DNA from: Cytophagia bacterium CHB2 | GTDB taxonomy: Bacteria; Zhuqueibacterota; Zhuqueibacteria; Zhuqueibacterales; Zhuqueibacteraceae | Direction of reading: 5' to 3' | DNA: 58,660 bases | Assembly: GCA_030263535.1 (NCBI GenBank) | Contig: SZPB01000004.1 | Span: forward strand, 1-58,660 | Part shown: one piece after another, positions 7,065 through 43,733 of the stretch | Layout: every line of letters begins with the position of its first letter | Position numbering within the stretch: the first letter of the stretch is position 1 | The notes under the pieces: generated by a model | What the model was told of the DNA's origin: nothing | Databases searched by the model: none | The model's input: the letters and a program-made list of their open reading frames with translations, nothing else | Program-made: the position numbers and the translations under genes

Positions 7065-7197
7065 AACTCCGTTAGGAGTGACATGTAGTGGTGCAAGCAA
7101 ATCGCCAATTGGAGCCAAAACCAAACATGTCACCCCGATGGGGTTTCTATTCTCAGGCGAACTTTGGGCTATAAACATTTCACTCCTAGCGGAGTTT
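7065..7197. repeat. Imperfect palindromic intergenic repeat
   Basis: The 318-bp gap between the hybrid sensor and the next regulator holds no gene. It contains nested inverted repeats: an outer 17-bp pair (7065-7081 and 7180-7196, one mismatch), a 9-bp GTGACATGT/ACATGTCAC pair inside it, and an ACCCCGATGGGGT palindrome at 7132-7144. The layout resembles the transposase-linked palindromic elements near 38.4 and 42.7 kb, but the sequence differs, so it is probably another family of MITE/REP-like repeat. Confidence 0.6.
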
Positions 7198-38106: not shown

Positions 38107-38748
38107 CTTCGACAGGCGACTCGACCGAGACTTCTGCGTGAGCGCTCAGTCGAACGCTCGTCGAGGTCTCAGTCACCGCAGATGTTCAGCCACGGCTTGG
38201 CCGTGGCTTGACTACAGCAGATGCTACGGCCAAGCCGTGGCAGAGCAAACAGGTATTTTCGATTTTGACTATCAAATTTGATCAGCAAAACCCAAGCATC
38301 TGTCATCCAGAAAGGAATTTGTGAAGCATTCCGTGCAGCGCTCAGTGCTTGACAAGTTGACCCCAACGGGGTCCGATGCGGCAGCCCACGGGCAACGCCC
38401 TGGGAACTAATGGGGACTGTCACACAAAGCCCTGAAGGGGCTGGCAAATTTTGATAAATCGATTCCCAGGGCGTTGCCCGTGGCTTTCACATTATGCCCC
38501 GTTGGGGCAGTTATTGAGGCGTTGATCCCGCTTTCGGTATTCGTTCGAAAAGTCGCCATACTTGCGCTTTGCCGCTGATTTGCTATTTTGCGGGTAACAC
38601 ACAATGCTTTGGAAGTAAAAGTATCCAAAATGCTACTGCCCGGGCGCTCAGCCATGAAGCGTGTGCAAGACTAATAACCAACAGAATCGTTCATTGCAAA
38701 CCGCCCGGGCAGTTATCCGTTACTACTCAAAAAGGGCAGCAATCGTGG
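38107..38748. other. Gene-free repeat-rich stretch before the template repeat
   Basis: No gene is visible. It holds a palindromic 'CCACGGCTTGGCCGTGG' sequence (38190-38206) whose inverted partner is at 38226-38241. The solo palindromic element annotated separately at 38359-38509 follows. A 12-bp inverted pair, ACTGCCCGGGCG near 38634-38647 and CGCCCGGGCAGT at 38702-38713, comes next; the right arm recurs at 35838-35850 before the serine hydrolase gene. Confidence 0.6.
38359..38509. repeat. Solo palindromic element related to the transposase-flanking repeats
   Basis: Two inverted copies of one ~45-bp unit face each other: an outer ACCCCAACGGGGT-type palindrome (38359-38373 and 38495-38509), then GGGCAACGCCC (38390-38400) and its inverse (38469-38479), with a small AGCCCTGAAGGGGCT hairpin between (38428-38442). 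The same units in the same order flank the transposase at 42684-43380. This is a MITE/REP-like copy without its own enzyme. Confidence 0.8.
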
Positions 38749-38879
38749 GTTCGAACCGGGTGTTGCGCGGCGGGTCCTGGAACAACAATGCGCAGAACTG
38801 CCGTTCCGCGAATCGTAACTGGAACAGCCCCGACAACCGCAACAACAATATTGGCTTCCGCCTGGTTTTCCTCCCGTAG
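38749..38879 (+). repeat. DGR template repeat (TR)
   Basis: The sequence reads as the end of an FGE/C-type-lectin domain, 'GSNRVLRGGSWNNNAQNC' then an Asn-rich run, ending 'IGFRLVFLP' and TAG. It has no gene in front of it. Over the 116-bp core (38764-38879) it matches the 3' end of the NACHT-FGE gene (41801-41916) without gaps. There are 14 mismatches, and each lies at an adenine of this copy (14 of 27 adenines changed). Ten AAY codons sit where the target has Tyr, Asp, Gly or Ser. That one-sided adenine substitution is the hallmark of DGR mutagenic retrohoming, which makes this copy the template. Homology extends upstream to 38749 with two more adenine changes and two others. Confidence 0.92.
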
Positions 38880-39136
38880 CTCATAGGGTAAAGTCGGAGG
38901 ACTGCCTCTGAACAGATTGCTGTCCCGTTCGTCCGGCACGGGAGCGCGGACATTCCTGTCCGCGATAAACGTTGCGCGGACGACAAACAGCGGTGCAAAT
39001 GCCCGGTGCTGGTAGGGCAAATGGATTTTTGCTTCGAAAGCTCCGGGCATTGGTTTTGTTGGTATAAAAAAACGAAATTTTTATATTGAACATTCTCGGG
39101 TGTGTAAAATAGACAGATCATCGTACTGGGACAACC

Positions 39137-39601
39137 ATGAAAACCGAATCTCAGAAACCATTATTTCGCGTCTTTGTCAGTTCGACTTATATTGATTTAG
39201 TCGAGTACCGCAAGGCGGCGGAAAAAGCCATTAACGACCAGCGCCAAAAATATGAAGGCATGGAGTATCTGGGCGCGATGGATAAAGAGCCAACCAAAGC
39301 CTGCCTGGATTTGGTCGAAGACTGCAATCTTTTTATCGGCATTTATGCCTGGCGTTACGGCCATGTTTCGGACGGCGCTGAGATTTCCATCACCGAACTG
39401 GAATATCAACATGCGAAAAAACTGGACATTCCCTGCCTGTGCTATTTTGTGGACGAAGATTTTCCCTGGCTGAAGAAATTCATTGAGACCGGTGTTGCCG
39501 AAGAAAAGTTGAGCGGTTCAAAAGCCAAATTTCCAAAGAGCATGTGCGCACCAGTTTTAAAGAACCGCTGCATTTGGAAAGAAATATCATCAGTGACCTG
39601 A
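39137..39601 (+). pseudogene. DUF4062 N-terminal part of the DGR target, separated by a frameshift
   Basis: From ATG 39137 (GGGA upstream) the frame encodes a DUF4062 domain: 'FRVFVSSTYIDLVEYRKAAE', 'CLDLVEDCNLFIGIYAWRYG', 'SITELEYQHAKKLDIPCLCY'. It runs out of frame near 39508 and stops at 39601. After 39508 the continuing family sequence ('[19 protein letters not shown]') is in the frame of the following ORF. One base appears to be missing in 'AAGTTGAGCGG'; inserting a G would restore 'EEKLERFKSQI'. The original gene therefore was DUF4062-NACHT-FGE (39137-41916). Recent mutation, sequencing error or deliberate recoding cannot be told apart here. Confidence 0.85.
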
Positions 39602-41916
39602 GTAATTGGCTGGCAGATAACCGGCCCGGTCTGAAGCGAGAAGCGCTGAAACCGGGGCAGGATCCGGTCGCGATGTACAAAAAAGCCCTCGCAGAAAAAT
39701 ATGCCAGCTTGAACATGATTGGCTTCAAGCGCAGTTTTGCGATGGACAGCATCTATATTCCCTTGACCGTACACGTCGATCCCGAATTGCGTATTGTCGA
39801 CCAGGCTGGGGAACGGCTCGAAAAACTCGCAACGCGTTCACTTACAGCCGAAGATCTGCTGGAGCTTCCCAATAAAGCCGCGGTGGTTTTGGGCGAGCCG
39901 GGCATGGGCAAAACCACCATGCTGCATTATCTGGCGCGCCGGGAAAGCCAAAAGGCCGCGGCGCTTTTTCCCATTTTCGTGAAGCTGTCGGATTTTGGCA
40001 AAACCCGCGAGCCGCTGGAAAACTTTTTGCTCGCGGCGGTGGAAAATCATATCCCCGGCGCTACCATGCACGACGCCGCCCAAAATGCCATCGACACCCA
40101 ACATGCACTCATCTTGCTGGATGGCCTGGATGAAGTGAGCCGTGAGAAATATACTTCTGTGACCGAGCGGATTCGCGCTTTTGTGGCCGGCCATCAATAT
40201 TGCCGGGTGATCATCACCTCGCGCAAGGCCGGGTTTCAAAGCGATCAGACGCCGTATCGTCTTTTTGAAATCGACAAATTGCCCCTAGCGGAAATTGCCA
40301 ACTTCGTACACAAATGGTTTGAACAAAAAAACGACCTTGCCGGGCGCATTGCCGCCAATCGCCGGATTTACGAGCTGGCGCAGAATCCATTCTTGCTCTC
40401 CATTATCTGCTTCATCTTTGAAAAGTATCGTGACCTGCCGCAGCGCCGGTTGGAGCTTTATGAAAAATGCGCCGTCACCCTGCTGACGTTGTATGATGAG
40501 AAGCAGGTCGACAGAGTGAACGGCTTCACGCGGCTTCTGAAAGAGCGGGTGCTGGAAGATTTGGCGCATCACTTTTTCTGCAAGGAAGCGGAGGAGTTTG
40601 CTTATGCGCCGTTGATCGAGCAGGTGGCGCAGACCCTGGCCACAATGAAACGGAACGACAACGAGGAAGAGGTGCTGCGGGAAATCCGCGAAAACAGCGG
40701 GCTGCTGCAAAAAAGCGATGATCGCCATCTGTTTGTGCATCGCACCTTTTATGAATATTACGTCTCCTGCAAAATGCGCGGCGAGACGCCGGAAGCGGTG
40801 TTAGGCCGATCGACGCAATCGCGTTGGGAGGAACCCATTCGCCTGTACGCCGCGCAAATTCAAGCAGTAACCGAAGGCACCCACTTTATCAAGCAACTTT
40901 GGGAAAAAGATCGGGCCCTGGCTCTGCGTTGTTATCCGGACATGGATCGCGTGGTGGAACCTGATCTGATCAGAAATTTATTGAATGAAGCAAAGGTGGA
41001 AGAGCGCGTCGAGCTCGTGAAAGGCCTACCCGAAAAAATATCCGAGCCTGACAAGATCGTTGAAACTCTGCGTGAATTGTTTCGTTGGGAAACTAACGGC
41101 GAGGTAATTTATTGGGGCGCGCAGATTCTCGAAGCCAAAAAAGACACGCCCGGCGCATTGGAGATTGTCCGGCAAAAATTGGATGAGGGCGCGCGACAAC
41201 GTTATGAAGAATATCTGGCCAAAGACATGGCGCCTATTGCCGCGGGTCAATTCAAAATGGGAAGTCCTAAAAATGAAGCGGAGAGATTCGAAGATGAAAT
41301 CCAGCATCAAGTTAAAGTGGGAGATTTTTTGATCAGCCGTTATCAGATCACCAACCGGTTGTACGAGTTGTTTGACCCGAACCATCGCTCGCGGCGCGAT
41401 GAATATTCCGACCGAGACGAGCAGCCGGTGATTTATGTTAACTGGTATGAAGCCGTTATGTTCTGCCGCTGGCTGGGCTGCCGGTTGCCGACCGAAGCCC
41501 AGTGGGAATATGCCTGCCGCGCCGGAACGACGACACCGTTCAATACCGGCGAAAACCTGGCGACCGAGCAGGCAAATTACAACGGAAACTATCCGTATAA
41601 GAATTTTCCCAAAGGTAAATATTTGCAGAAAACCAAGCCGGTGGGCAGCTATCCGCCCAACGCGTGGGGGCTTCACGATATGCACGGCAATGTTTTTGAA
41701 TGGTGCCAGGATTGGTATGGCGAAAAATACTATGATGAATGCAAAAAGAAAGGCACTGTAGAAAATCCTACTGGGCCGGAAACTGGTTCTCGCCGGGTGA
41801 TGCGCGGCGGGTCCTGGTACGACTATGCGCAGAACTGCCGTTCCGCGGATCGTGACTGGGGCAGCCCCGACGGCCGCGACTACTCTGTTGGCTTCCGCCT
41901 GGTTTTCCTCCCGTAG
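39544..41916 (+). CDS. NACHT-family STAND NTPase with C-terminal FGE/SUMF1 domain, the DGR target protein (main part)
   Basis: The open part begins before GTG 39544 in the same frame (coding from ~39510) and ends at 41916; 790 aa from the GTG. NACHT NTPase: Walker A G117-EPGMGKT, Walker B '[11 protein letters not shown]' (189-199), 'RVIITSRK' sensor, and 'VHRTFYEYY' winged-helix-side motif. A helical arm follows. From residue 562 ('[14 protein letters not shown]') it is an FGE-sulfatase/SUMF1 (C-type lectin fold) domain with '[15 protein letters not shown]' and '[14 protein letters not shown]'. The last 38 residues are the DGR variable repeat. NACHT proteins of this build are STAND sensors, many anti-phage. 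The diversified lectin fold would be the ligand-binding face. It acts in the cytoplasm, as no signal peptide is seen. Confidence 0.9.
41801..41916 (+). repeat. DGR variable repeat (VR)
   Basis: The 3' end of the FGE domain, aligned without gaps to the template at 38764-38879 (offset 3037). Codon changes relative to the template: AAC to TAC, GAC, GGC; AAT to TAT, GAT, TCT; ATT to GTT. The protein '[20 protein letters not shown]' replaces an Asn-rich template. The final 27 bp up to TAG are identical, as expected of the initiation region for mutagenic homing (IMH). Confidence 0.92.
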
Positions 41917-42236
41917 TTCACCCTGTGAAATAGTGAATTTCTTATGTCTTATTTTTATGTTTATGTCCTTCAAAGCGAAACGGATAATCAGTTTTATACA
42001 GGGTATACGTCTGATATACGTAAGCGCTTAGAAGAACATAATGCCGGGCTTGTTCATTCAACAAAGAATCGAAAGCCTTTGAAATTGGTATATTTTGAAG
42101 GTTGTCTCAATCAACAAGATGCGACACATCGGGAAAAATACTTGAAAACAACTTACGGCAAAAGATACCTCAAGGAAAGGTTGAAGAATTATTTCACAGG
42201 GTAAAGTTGGCAGTTCCTTCCGGCTTTACCCTGTGA
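41917..42236 (+). mobile_element. GIY-YIG cassette inserted directly behind the variable repeat
   Basis: Near-perfect 16-bp inverted repeats bound the cassette (41917-41932 and 42190-42205, one mismatch), and TTCAC occurs at both edges (41917-41921, 42193-42197). Removing the insert gives TAGTTCACAGGGTAAAGTTGG, which aligns with TAGCTCATAGGGTAAAGTCGG right after the template repeat (38877-38897). The right edge also forms a 13-bp stem (42194-42206 with 42224-42236) that may end transcription. Confidence 0.65.
41944..42204 (+). CDS. Small GIY-YIG nuclease-domain protein
   Basis: An 86-aa single-domain protein: 'FYVYVLQSETDNQFYTGYT' supplies the GIY-YIG-type strands, 'DIRKRLEEHNAG' the catalytic Arg helix, and 'ATHREKYLKTTYGKRYLKER' the region with the metal-binding Glu. 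It belongs to the small stand-alone (UhbP/UPF0213-like) group that is often scattered through genomes of candidate phyla. It could promote its own spread by DNA nicking, or be a repair nuclease. It begins 28 bp after the target's stop codon. Confidence 0.88.
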   Translation: MSYFYVYVLQSETDNQFYTGYTSDIRKRLEEHNAGLVHSTKNRKPLKLVYFEGCLNQQDATHREKYLKTTYGKRYLKERLKNYFTG

Positions 42237-42414
42237 GCAGGCGAGTTGTTTGAGCGGAATGAACGAGGCGCGAGGGACGAGCGCCGAGTGAAATGGAGCG
42301 AGAACAACGAGTCCGTTTGTAAAGATCGTTTGTAGTAACGCCTTCAGGCGCTTAACTTGCGCCGAAGGCCCGACGCCTAAAGGCGAAACTACGAACTATT
42401 TTCAAAAAATAACC
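42205..42414. other. Gene-free repeat region between the cassette and the DGR accessory gene
   Basis: It holds the right stem of the cassette, a GC-rich segment (GCGAGGGACGAGCGCCGAGT near 42270) and a palindromic 'GTAACGCCTTCAGGCGCTT' unit (42334-42353) that recurs at 45628-45646 downstream of lexA. No coding signal is seen. Confidence 0.55.
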
Positions 42415-42678
42415 ATGCAAATCAAACTCTTCACCATCCCGGTCGGCGACAGCGGCGCGGCGCAGGAAGAAATGAACCGTTTCTTGCGGGGCAATAAGAT
42501 TTTGGAAGTGCAAAACCAGTTGATCAGCAACGAGAACGGCACGTATTGGTGCTTTTGCGTTCGTTACATTGAAAAGGCCTTTGCTCCAACGAACGAGCAC
42601 AAAGGCAAAGTGGATTACAAACAAATCCTCGACGAAGCCACGTTTAAGAAAATTTCGAAGAGTACGAGGCTATTTTAA
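42415..42678 (+). CDS. DGR accessory protein (HRDC-type family), truncated
   Basis: An 87-aa ORF whose sequence ('IKLFTIPVGDSG', 'EEMNRFLRGNKILEVQNQLI', 'GTYWCFCVRYIEKAF', 'KGKVDYKQILDE') matches the N-terminal domain I know from accessory proteins found next to DGR reverse transcriptases. In those proteins the domain is usually followed by an HRDC nucleic-acid-binding domain. Here the frame stops shortly after 'TFKKIS', and the palindromic transposase element begins 6 bp later. The HRDC part is therefore lost. The family match is from memory; its position between VR and RT remnant strongly supports it. Probably no longer functional. Confidence 0.7.
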   Translation: MQIKLFTIPVGDSGAAQEEMNRFLRGNKILEVQNQLISNENGTYWCFCVRYIEKAFAPTNEHKGKVDYKQILDEATFKKISKSTRLF

Positions 42679-42683
42679 AAACA

Positions 42684-43380
42684 GCCCCAAAGGGGCATCA
42701 TGTAAAAGCGAAGGGCAACGCCCTGGAGGATAAATCAATCAAAACGTTCCCAAGCCCCAACGGGGCGATATAGAAACCTCTTCAATCCCGTTATCATCAA
42801 TATTGGAAGGGAGTCGCCATGCCGCAAAGCCTTGCAAGCATTCCGGTGCACTGTATTTGGAGCACCAGGGACCGCCAGCCATTCATAAGCCAGGAAATTG
42901 AAAAAGAGCTATTCAGTTATATGGTCTCCATTTTTCGTGCCTATGAATCTCCGGCGCTGACAATCAATGGGACCGAAGATCATGTGCACAGTCTTACAAT
43001 ACCGTCGCGAAAAATTACAGTAGCCAAGCTCATAGAAGAAGTGAAAAAGAGTTCATCAAAATGGATCAAAACCAAAGGTGCGCTCTATAGGAGTTTCTAT
43101 TGGCAAAGTGGTTACGCAGCATTGGGAATAGGACAATCGAACATTGAGGCATTAAAAAGATATATCGCCAATCAGAAAGAACACCATCGCCAGAAAACAT
43201 TTCAGGAAGAGTACATCGAATTCCTGAAAAAATACAACATCGAATATGATGAGCGATATGTTTGGGACTAATGATATTCGCATAGATATTCTATTTCGCC
43301 CCGTTAGGGCTTTAGAAATCTGAGGTTGAATTCTTTCCAGGGCGTTGCCCTTCGCTATTACATGTTGCCCCGTTGGGGCA
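42684..43380 (+). mobile_element. REP-associated (RAYT) transposase element with inverted palindromic ends
   Basis: The left end (42684-42766) and right end (43297-43380) are inverted copies of one ~83-bp unit: a GCCCCAA(A/C)GGGGC palindrome, 'CATGTAA(A/T)AGCGAAG', GGGCAACGCCC, then another GCCC(C/T)AACGGGGC palindrome innermost. The transposase gene lies between. The element sits exactly where the 3' half of the DGR accessory gene and most of the reverse transcriptase should be. Confidence 0.85.
42819..43271 (+). CDS. REP-associated tyrosine transposase (IS200/IS605-related, Y1 HUH family)
   Basis: A 150-aa protein of typical length. It has 'VHCIWSTRDRQPFI' at the start, the HUH motif in 'GTEDHVHSL', 'KLIEEVKKSSSKWIKTKG', 'FYWQSGYAALGIGQ', and the catalytic Tyr in 'RYIANQKEHH'. 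Such enzymes cut and join single-stranded DNA at REP-like hairpins, and the matching palindromes lie on both sides. It is intact, so it could also have mobilised the solo element at 38359-38509. Confidence 0.93.
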   Translation: MPQSLASIPVHCIWSTRDRQPFISQEIEKELFSYMVSIFRAYESPALTINGTEDHVHSLTIPSRKITVAKLIEEVKKSSSKWIKTKGALYRSFYWQSGYAALGIGQSNIEALKRYIANQKEHHRQKTFQEEYIEFLKKYNIEYDERYVWD

Positions 43381-43424
43381 GAGGGGCGGGGGGCATTTCA
43401 GGCGGTTCACAAAAAACTGAAAAC

Positions 43425-43733
43425 ACGCTAAAATTAGCACTGAAGCCCGTCTGCTTGAATCGCAATGCGCACGGGCTTCCTTTTTTGGGGTACTTGCTGT
43501 ATCCTGGTCGCACACGCCTGGCGCAGCGCAGCCGGATTCGATTTCTCAAAAAATTGCGCGGTTATGAAGAAAATTTGATATTGGGTATTTGGACACAAAG
43601 CGAGTATCAAGCTCATGTGTTGCCGCTGATCGCGTTTACCGAGCATGCTGAAGCAAAAGAGTTTCGGAAAAAAGTGAACATCGGTAAAAGTGTGTTTGGG
43701 CAAAGTCGAACTTTCGCGCGACGATGGTTTTAA
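43425..43733 (+). pseudogene. C-terminal remnant of a DGR reverse transcriptase
   Basis: In one frame, from about 43425, the sequence reads 'LKLALKPVCLN', then 'HGLPFLGYLLYPGRTRL', 'RSRIRFLKKLRGYE' and 'PLIAFTEHAEAKEFRKK', stopping at 43733. This is the conserved tail of DGR-type (group II-related) reverse transcriptases: 'G.PFLG(Y/F)...P...RL..R...RF..KLR.YE' then 'L.AF..HA'. All polymerase motifs, including the catalytic YxDD, are absent. Upstream of 43410 the frame is only palindromic repeat DNA. The last ~15 codons run into a hairpin repeat. The recognition is by motif; a profile search would settle it. Confidence 0.75.

Follow-up and report, generated by a model that had tools for sequence, protein, structure and literature searches.

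Diversity-generating retroelements (DGRs) acting on NACHT/FGE targets, degenerate DGR loci, the replacement of a DGR reverse transcriptase (RT) by mobile repeats, and diversification in trans have all been published (PMC10907252, which also cites transposons truncating DGR RTs), and the HRDC and MSL accessories of DGRs have been described (PMC10053308). The way in which a DGR cDNA locates its target and enters it has been described as incompletely understood (PMC12875486). Here, we analysed a 58,660-nt stretch of Cytophagia bacterium CHB2 (contig SZPB01000004.1), referred to as the window, from a draft host assembly of 6.98 Mb in 681 contigs (G000); G, C and L numbers denote genomes, contigs and loci, respectively. 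The window carries a template repeat (TR) and a variable repeat (VR) that form a DGR pair closing a NACHT-FGE gene. The locus very probably represents the remains of a DGR of the HRDC accessory class, the copying enzyme of which is now largely deleted there. The parts of the locus listed below lie on the forward strand, except those derived from repetitive extragenic palindromic (REP) elements, to which no strand is assigned.

The TR (38748..38879) was delimited by comparison with the TR/VR pairs of relatives, and the VR (41785..41916), at the 3' end of the target and terminating in its stop codon, by repeat alignment. A preliminary description of the sequence had aligned 38764-38879 with 41801-41916 over 116 bp without gaps, all mismatches falling at adenines of the upstream copy. 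Realignment and counting per template base gave the same picture, with 14/14 mismatches at A (9 A>G, 4 A>T and 1 A>C, the upstream copy offering 27 A; P = 5e-11 for all 14 hitting A by chance), and the count of 11 residues differing between the copies was reproduced. The terminal identity, described as 27 bp, is indeed present as a shared 3' end resembling the initiation of mutagenic homing (IMH) sequence, but measures 29 bp. The 116-bp alignment is correct as far as it goes, whereas the full repeat, judged by the TR/VR of relatives, is 132 bp long, with its left edge 16 bp further out. In this longer pair 16 of the 18 mismatches are at A of the upstream copy (P 5e-11), and 16/16 of these A changes are at codon positions 1 or 2. 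A BLAST search found no third copy of the TR region in the host assembly, seven other matches spanning 15-25 query bases each.

The machinery accompanying this pair was found to be broken, which the preliminary description had missed. By homology, the segment 42415..42660 is a 5' fragment of an HRDC-type DGR accessory gene, comprising 82 codons and missing the HRDC domain, and 43410..43733 is a 3' fragment of a DGR RT, homologous to the last ~92 residues. Accessory codons 1-82 showed 54-74% identity to three HRDC accessories (54% to L046 and 74% to G031), and RT residues ~241-332, encoded at 43410-43685, showed 61%, 65% and 62% identity to those of L046, G060 and G031, respectively, as compared with 32% over 53 residues to the RT of another DGR of the host (C5). 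Both fragments are closest to the HRDC class and both are incomplete; the window holds only the C-terminal part of a DGR-type RT and only the 5' part of an accessory gene of either the Avd or the HRDC type, and the locus is a remnant rather than a member of the DGRs. Between the fragments, Pfam and repeat analyses revealed a REP-flanked REP-associated tyrosine transposase (RAYT) insertion (42676..43404; Y1_Tnp open reading frame (ORF) at 42819-43271), which has taken the place of the accessory gene's end and of most of the RT. This insertion carries inverted REP arms, for which 35 matching rows were obtained in the host genome, the query and its arms included; a further REP-like copy, detected by a repeat search of the host genome, lies upstream of the TR (38429..38515). 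Neither the missing RT core nor the missing HRDC domain or any other accessory piece was found elsewhere in the host assembly. We infer that a working RT of the element, erring at A, transferred the TR sequence to the VR at an evolutionarily recent time, that REP/RAYT activity afterwards removed the RT core, and that the last-written VR is now fixed. This interpretation is based on the adenine bias, the HRDC-like fragments, the lack of any other RT or accessory piece in the assembly, the intact relatives, and the RT tail retained in a strain of the same species, as described below.

Intact HRDC-RT-TR arrangements are present in L046, G060 and G031. L046 (JAJFLO010000246.1), the closest full-length relative in the target search with 66% identity over the target, contains three FGE targets, an HRDC accessory, an RT and a TR. 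When variation at template A was checked in these relatives, the same bias was observed: the L046 TR differed from its three VRs (132 bp) with 15/15, 15/15 and 18/20 mismatches at A, and the G031 TR on C19 differed from VRs on C19, C172 and C33 with 20/20, 17/17 and 15/16 at A. One G031 TR thus apparently serves VRs on other contigs, as far as the repeats indicate. The TR and spacer (~200 bp) are conserved in L046 (89%) and in G031, G046 and G060 (81-83%; 3 of the other 62 genomes in the class search). Beyond the first ~31 nt, the remaining spacer of the window's TR-RNA (38911..39060) consists of blocks conserved in the relatives, and holds 38-40 extra nt (about 38934-38973) absent from the four relatives. 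The first ~57 nt of the spacer folded no better than shuffles in three sequences. By eye, the spacers of the window, L046, G031, G046, G060, G105 and L264 share a motif in which a short stem carries a GGAN loop and, in most of them, precedes CTGAAC; this motif may be an RT-binding core of the HRDC-class RNA. G046 (L180, C225, 414-1397) contains a TR and a VR with no RVT_1 match in its assembly, and 10/29 of its TR/VR mismatches are non-A; this pair looks like an aged DGR fossil, or else its RT may lie outside the assembly. In G045, the FGE targets of L102 and L134 have VR-like ends, and L102 also has an S'-like flank (see below); no TR match reaching the spacer and no HRDC-class RT match were found in the G045 assembly.

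Comparison of the flanks revealed that the segment S following the TR (38880..38910), about 31 nt in the window's type, is antisense to a segment S' following the VR. In the window S' is displaced (42204..42238) by an inserted GIY-YIG element of ~290 bp (41917..42205; ORF 41944-42204) with inverted ends, recognized from its domain and by flank comparison, which lies between the VR and S'. A ~110-bp remnant of a GIY-YIG-like insert occurs at the same VR-stop/S' junction in G003 (L183, about 7090-7195). The ends of the window's GIY-YIG element resemble S and S', and its right end can pair with S' as a 12-13 bp stem. Over 40 nt, the S/S' duplexes of eight pairs, from the window, L046 (three VRs), G031 (two), G060 and G046, had energies of -40.6 to -50.6 kcal/mol, and 0/1000 shuffles reached any of these. 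The window with its displaced S' gave -48.0 kcal/mol at 40 nt (0/1000 shuffles); in a separate comparison it gave -48.1, as compared to -14.5 for the sequence now adjacent to the VR. The antisense flank that we propose as an HRDC-class trait is found in the displaced element and not in what adjoins the VR at present. For all five TR flanks the best partner is a VR flank from the same genome, and all eight VR flanks likewise pair best with their own TR; the S/S' sequence varies among genomes yet matches inside each genome. An automatic S/S' alignment contained 8 columns with matched changes on both sides, and its 245 ungapped cells comprised 178 Watson-Crick, 37 G.U and 30 mismatched cells, counts into which rows of one genome enter repeatedly and for which the alignment is visibly off mid-way.

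A search of 388 genomes with the accessory alignment matched 7, of which G302, G105, G225 and G114 were new. The G302 S/S' duplex had an energy of -45.6, as compared with -12.8 (standard deviation 3.3) for shuffles; G225 showed a 15-nt exact S/S' match and G105 one of 9-10 nt, and in G114 no TR/VR pair was found. Over eight systems (the window, L046, G060, G031, G046, G302, G105 and G225, namely those with any match by then), the true pairing was the unique best of 40,320 permutations. These data indicate that the S/S' complementarity itself is almost certainly real.

We assessed 60-nt flanks of the HRDC set and of loci not identified as HRDC-class. In the HRDC set, 10/15 pairs passed by energy at P < 0.05 (the window with displaced S', L046 x3, G031 x2, G060, G046, G302 and G225) and 9/15 by longest run, L262 passing by run (11 nt) but not by energy (P 0.0525); G046 was classed as HRDC from its TR-RNA alone. 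Counted by system, 8/11 HRDC-class systems show the signal. Among the controls, 0/24 pairs passed by energy and 1/24 by run. This control set comprised 23 loci (24 pairs), the accessory gene being checked for part of them, and excluded L225 and L226 (near-identical to L224) as well as L240, and L104 for its unclear repeat ends; an earlier scan of 36 loci had yielded no pair from L233, L238, L239, L241, L246, L248, L132 and L046, and the L240 flank contained N. In viral contigs, an RT scan for HRDC-class loci (A3) gave six loci, 0/6 with an S/S' signal, a second scan (A4) confirmed no HRDC-class DGR, and a third (A6) gave four loci. Among these, L262 and L263 share their repeat flanks and have an 11-nt match, L264 has none, and L261 gave no TR/VR pair. 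A search of plasmid and phage records with the accessory proteins retrieved HRDC domains of RecQ, plus records without annotation.

Several results weigh against these interpretations. Two mismatches of the 132-bp pair are non-A (38753 G>T and 38763 T>A); both lie at the left margin, just outside the 116-bp segment of the preliminary description. The lack of non-A differences in the 116 bp had been considered as a sign of very recent homing, and this was dropped since the 132 bp hold two; because of these two differences, and because the contrast between the window (2/18 non-A) and G046 (10/29) is not significant (Fisher P 0.095), we claim only that the homing was recent. Because the host assembly is a draft in 681 contigs, it may contain a misjoin or mix strains. 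As to the flanks, L050 (two VRs) and L264 are HRDC-class and show no S/S' complementarity by energy or run, and G105 is marginal (run P 0.0575, energy P 0.21; P 0.012 in an anchored-run test). The permutation test omitted L050, which had been tested earlier with no match, and predates L262 and L264. Conversely, nominal significance by run was reached by the control L247 (10 nt, P 0.01) and by BPP-1 (9 nt antisense, P 0.02), the duplex energy of BPP-1 not being significant (P 0.11 at 60 nt; reached by 29/500 shuffles at 40 nt). Taken together, the flank comparisons suggest that the S/S' feature is common in the HRDC class and not universal, and that a weak form may occur elsewhere.

One possible function of this complementarity is that S, the initial ~31 nt of the TR-RNA spacer, would pair in intact members of the class with a strand or transcript of S' downstream of the VR, the partner being either DNA or mRNA. 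Antiparallel pairing would put the 3' end of S against the end of the VR, and it may open the target and place the cDNA at the VR, replacing a hairpin of the BPP-1 type. That HRDC-class homing is guided by such S/S' pairing appears to us about as likely as not, and we are equally divided on whether this would amount to a co-evolving RNA guidance over roughly 10-38 nt that lets one template serve distant genes. There is a considerable, though less than even, probability that S/S' has another meaning, either as a regulatory contact between the TR RNA and the target mRNA or as a palindromic element copied in opposite orientations: 37/215 paired cells are G.U, as expected of RNA-RNA pairing, and the G302 element appeared partly palindromic by eye. 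However, the matched changes on both sides suggest pairing rather than mere copying, S' occupies the position of the BPP-1 homing hairpin, and none of 13 HRDC-set VR flanks (L262 and L264 not scanned) has a hairpin of >= 7 bp with a loop of 3-8 nt. In the window, too, no hairpin of this size, corresponding to the hairpin or cruciform that stands just 3' of the VR in phage DGRs, was found, whether the scan covered the 60 nt that follow the VR or started at the displaced element. A longer-looped stem formed by the right end of the insert and S' is visible by eye at 42193-42237. The 60-nt VR flanks of controls (L013, L231, L232, L236, L242, L245, L247 and others) are rich in CTCTG or CTTTTACCC pyrimidine repeats, unlike those of viral L224, L227 and L228, which have GNAA hairpins.

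The loss of the RT could alternatively be an assembly artefact, or a minority variant existing beside cells with an intact HRDC-RT. The draft state of the assembly and the coexistence of intact and broken variants in Thiohalocapsa aggregates (PMC10907252) fit this explanation, which we nevertheless consider improbable, as the window's element shares only 72-89% identity with the REP copies listed, which makes them a poor substrate for misjoins, and the missing RT core was not found on another contig. Furthermore, a second assembly of the same species, G119, also ends its RT at a REP junction. G119, the sole same-species genome besides that of the host among the 63 genomes of the class search, is collinear with the window up to 38,110 and from 43,608 on (97.5% and 95.5% identity), with 2.5-2.7% substitutions in the collinear parts and a short repeat-region match (38,300-38,439) between the blocks. 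In place of the DGR, its site is occupied by REP elements and a TIR/Lcl_C gene (PF13676, PF07603), and the RT tail that it retains starts at a REP junction at a point different from the window's. At this site neither strain has an RT core, and the conflict genes that they carry differ. In G119 (L185, C488, 8780-10200), the TIR/Lcl_C gene lies between near-identical direct REP copies, and its reading frame appears by eye to be broken near the end.

It is also conceivable that the RT of another DGR of the host continues to diversify the pair in trans, although we regard this as very unlikely. The host assembly has three RVT_1 matches, namely a gene on C288 with motifs that, read by eye, are not DGR-like, and two DGRs on C5 and C306; a working HRDC-class RT elsewhere in the assembly was sought and none was found, all three matches belonging to other elements. 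C5 and C306 each hold an RT, an accessory, a TR and a VR, with 15/16 and 13/14 TR/VR mismatches at A; the C5 accessory is bAvd (Pfam), and that of C306 is below the Pfam bAvd cut-off but is Avd by PHROG. Trans diversification of degenerate loci has been reported in Thiohalocapsa PB-PSB1 (PMC10907252), and the few non-A differences in the window's pair would fit it. In the published cases, however, the VR matches a remote TR, whereas the window has no remote TR or VR match. The C5 locus matches the TR region of the window only in the TR (70%) and in a dispersed upstream repeat (38184-38279), not in the spacer; the C306 locus shows no match to this region; and both accessories are of the Avd type, while the HRDC accessory of the window is truncated. 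The two DGRs resemble the window in their A-biased TR/VR mismatches, and C5 also in its NACHT-FGE target, but differ in having an RT catalytic domain, an Avd-type accessory and no S/S' complementarity. L013 (C5, 3844-9125) comprises the RT, TR, bAvd and a 1041-aa NACHT-FGE target; in L015 (C306, 1-5595), the RT is fused to MutS_I and accompanied by an Avd-like gene and by two ORFs with an Lcl_C domain (PF07603) at the end, one of them cut by the contig end. G119 has a counterpart of the C5 DGR, with a TR differing at 2/121 positions, and a DGR on its C312 with 14/14 TR/VR mismatches at A. Finally, ordinary paralogy of the two copies was rejected and has a negligible probability: FGE domains do occur repeatedly in the host genome, but 16/18 differences fall at A of one copy (P ~5e-11) and 16/16 at codon positions 1-2, the upstream copy lies outside any FGE gene, and its TR-spacer context is common to four other genomes.

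The target ORF (39544..41916) encodes NACHT (PF05729) and FGE-sulfatase (PF03781) domains, as identified by Pfam, the PF03781 match extending to residue 787/790, so that a C-type-lectin-fold target carrying the VR and IMH at its 3' end is present. A DUF4062 ORF (39137..39601), identified by its Pfam domain and by comparison to relatives, is out of frame with it. DUF4062 and NACHT-FGE form a single ORF in L046, G045 (L102) and G060 (L103), and homology switches from the DUF4062 frame to the NACHT frame near 39,500 in the window; the frame break may reflect either gene damage or an assembly indel. With regard to a possible role in antiviral STAND/NACHT defence, which would call for effector and sensor domains in one protein with the NACHT NTPase, NACHT and FGE are present and DUF4062 is out of frame; the top PADLOC match is PDC-S60, a candidate family. 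The window gave no Rfam match at gathering scores. In the AlphaFold model, the FGE domain had a mean predicted local distance difference test (pLDDT) score of 71, with ~52-58 in blocks over most of the VR; because of this low confidence, the proposed diversification of a "ligand face" is unproven and the model was not used. The preliminary description regarded the locus as a DGR with which the bacterium diversified the ligand face of a STAND/NACHT protein, in effect an adaptive sensor. A VR is written at the FGE end as claimed, but no working RT of the element was found in the assembly and the NACHT-FGE ORF is frame-shifted off its DUF4062 part, so this interpretation holds only in part; the adaptive sensor is a proposal already published for this protein class (PMC10907252).

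The window clearly exemplifies how damage by mobile elements can leave a diversified NACHT sensor gene behind; at the corresponding site, the sister strain bears another conflict gene, of the TIR kind. If S/S' guides homing in the HRDC class, a short antisense match could serve to predict targets, the existence of remote targets would be explained, and a programmable version might be built in laboratory strains. Among known systems, Thiohalocapsa PB-PSB1 is similar: its targets combine NACHT with C-type-lectin/FGE domains, some of its loci lack the machinery or hold it in pseudogenized form, mobile repeats have taken the place of the RT, and one genome contains complete as well as incomplete loci (PMC10907252). 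It differs in that the term HRDC is absent from the main text of that article, whereas the window is of the HRDC class and its eroding element is REP/RAYT, and in that the available text describes no complementarity between TR and VR flanks. The Treponema denticola DGR shares an HRDC accessory overlapping the RT, remote targets, and isolates keeping targets without RT and TR (PMC4891356); the available part of that article, compared by text rather than by sequence, describes no flank complementarity. BPP-1 shares adenine mutagenesis, a near-identical 3' end (IMH) and a functional element directly 3' of the VR (PMC3240598, PMC12875486), but has an Avd accessory and an 8-bp GAAA hairpin after the VR (NC_005357 analysed), in contrast to the HRDC-class flanks scanned, which have no BPP-1-like hairpin and are, in most systems, antisense to the TR spacer. 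Complementarity between TR and VR flanks was not described in the literature searched, most subscription papers and bioRxiv lying outside its reach, nor mentioned in the available text of PMC3240598, PMC12875486, PMC4372165, PMC8144416, PMC10743442 and PMC7159879. Taken together, these comparisons identify the locus as a broken DGR of an already described kind, and the antisense HRDC-class flank as new in the material searched.

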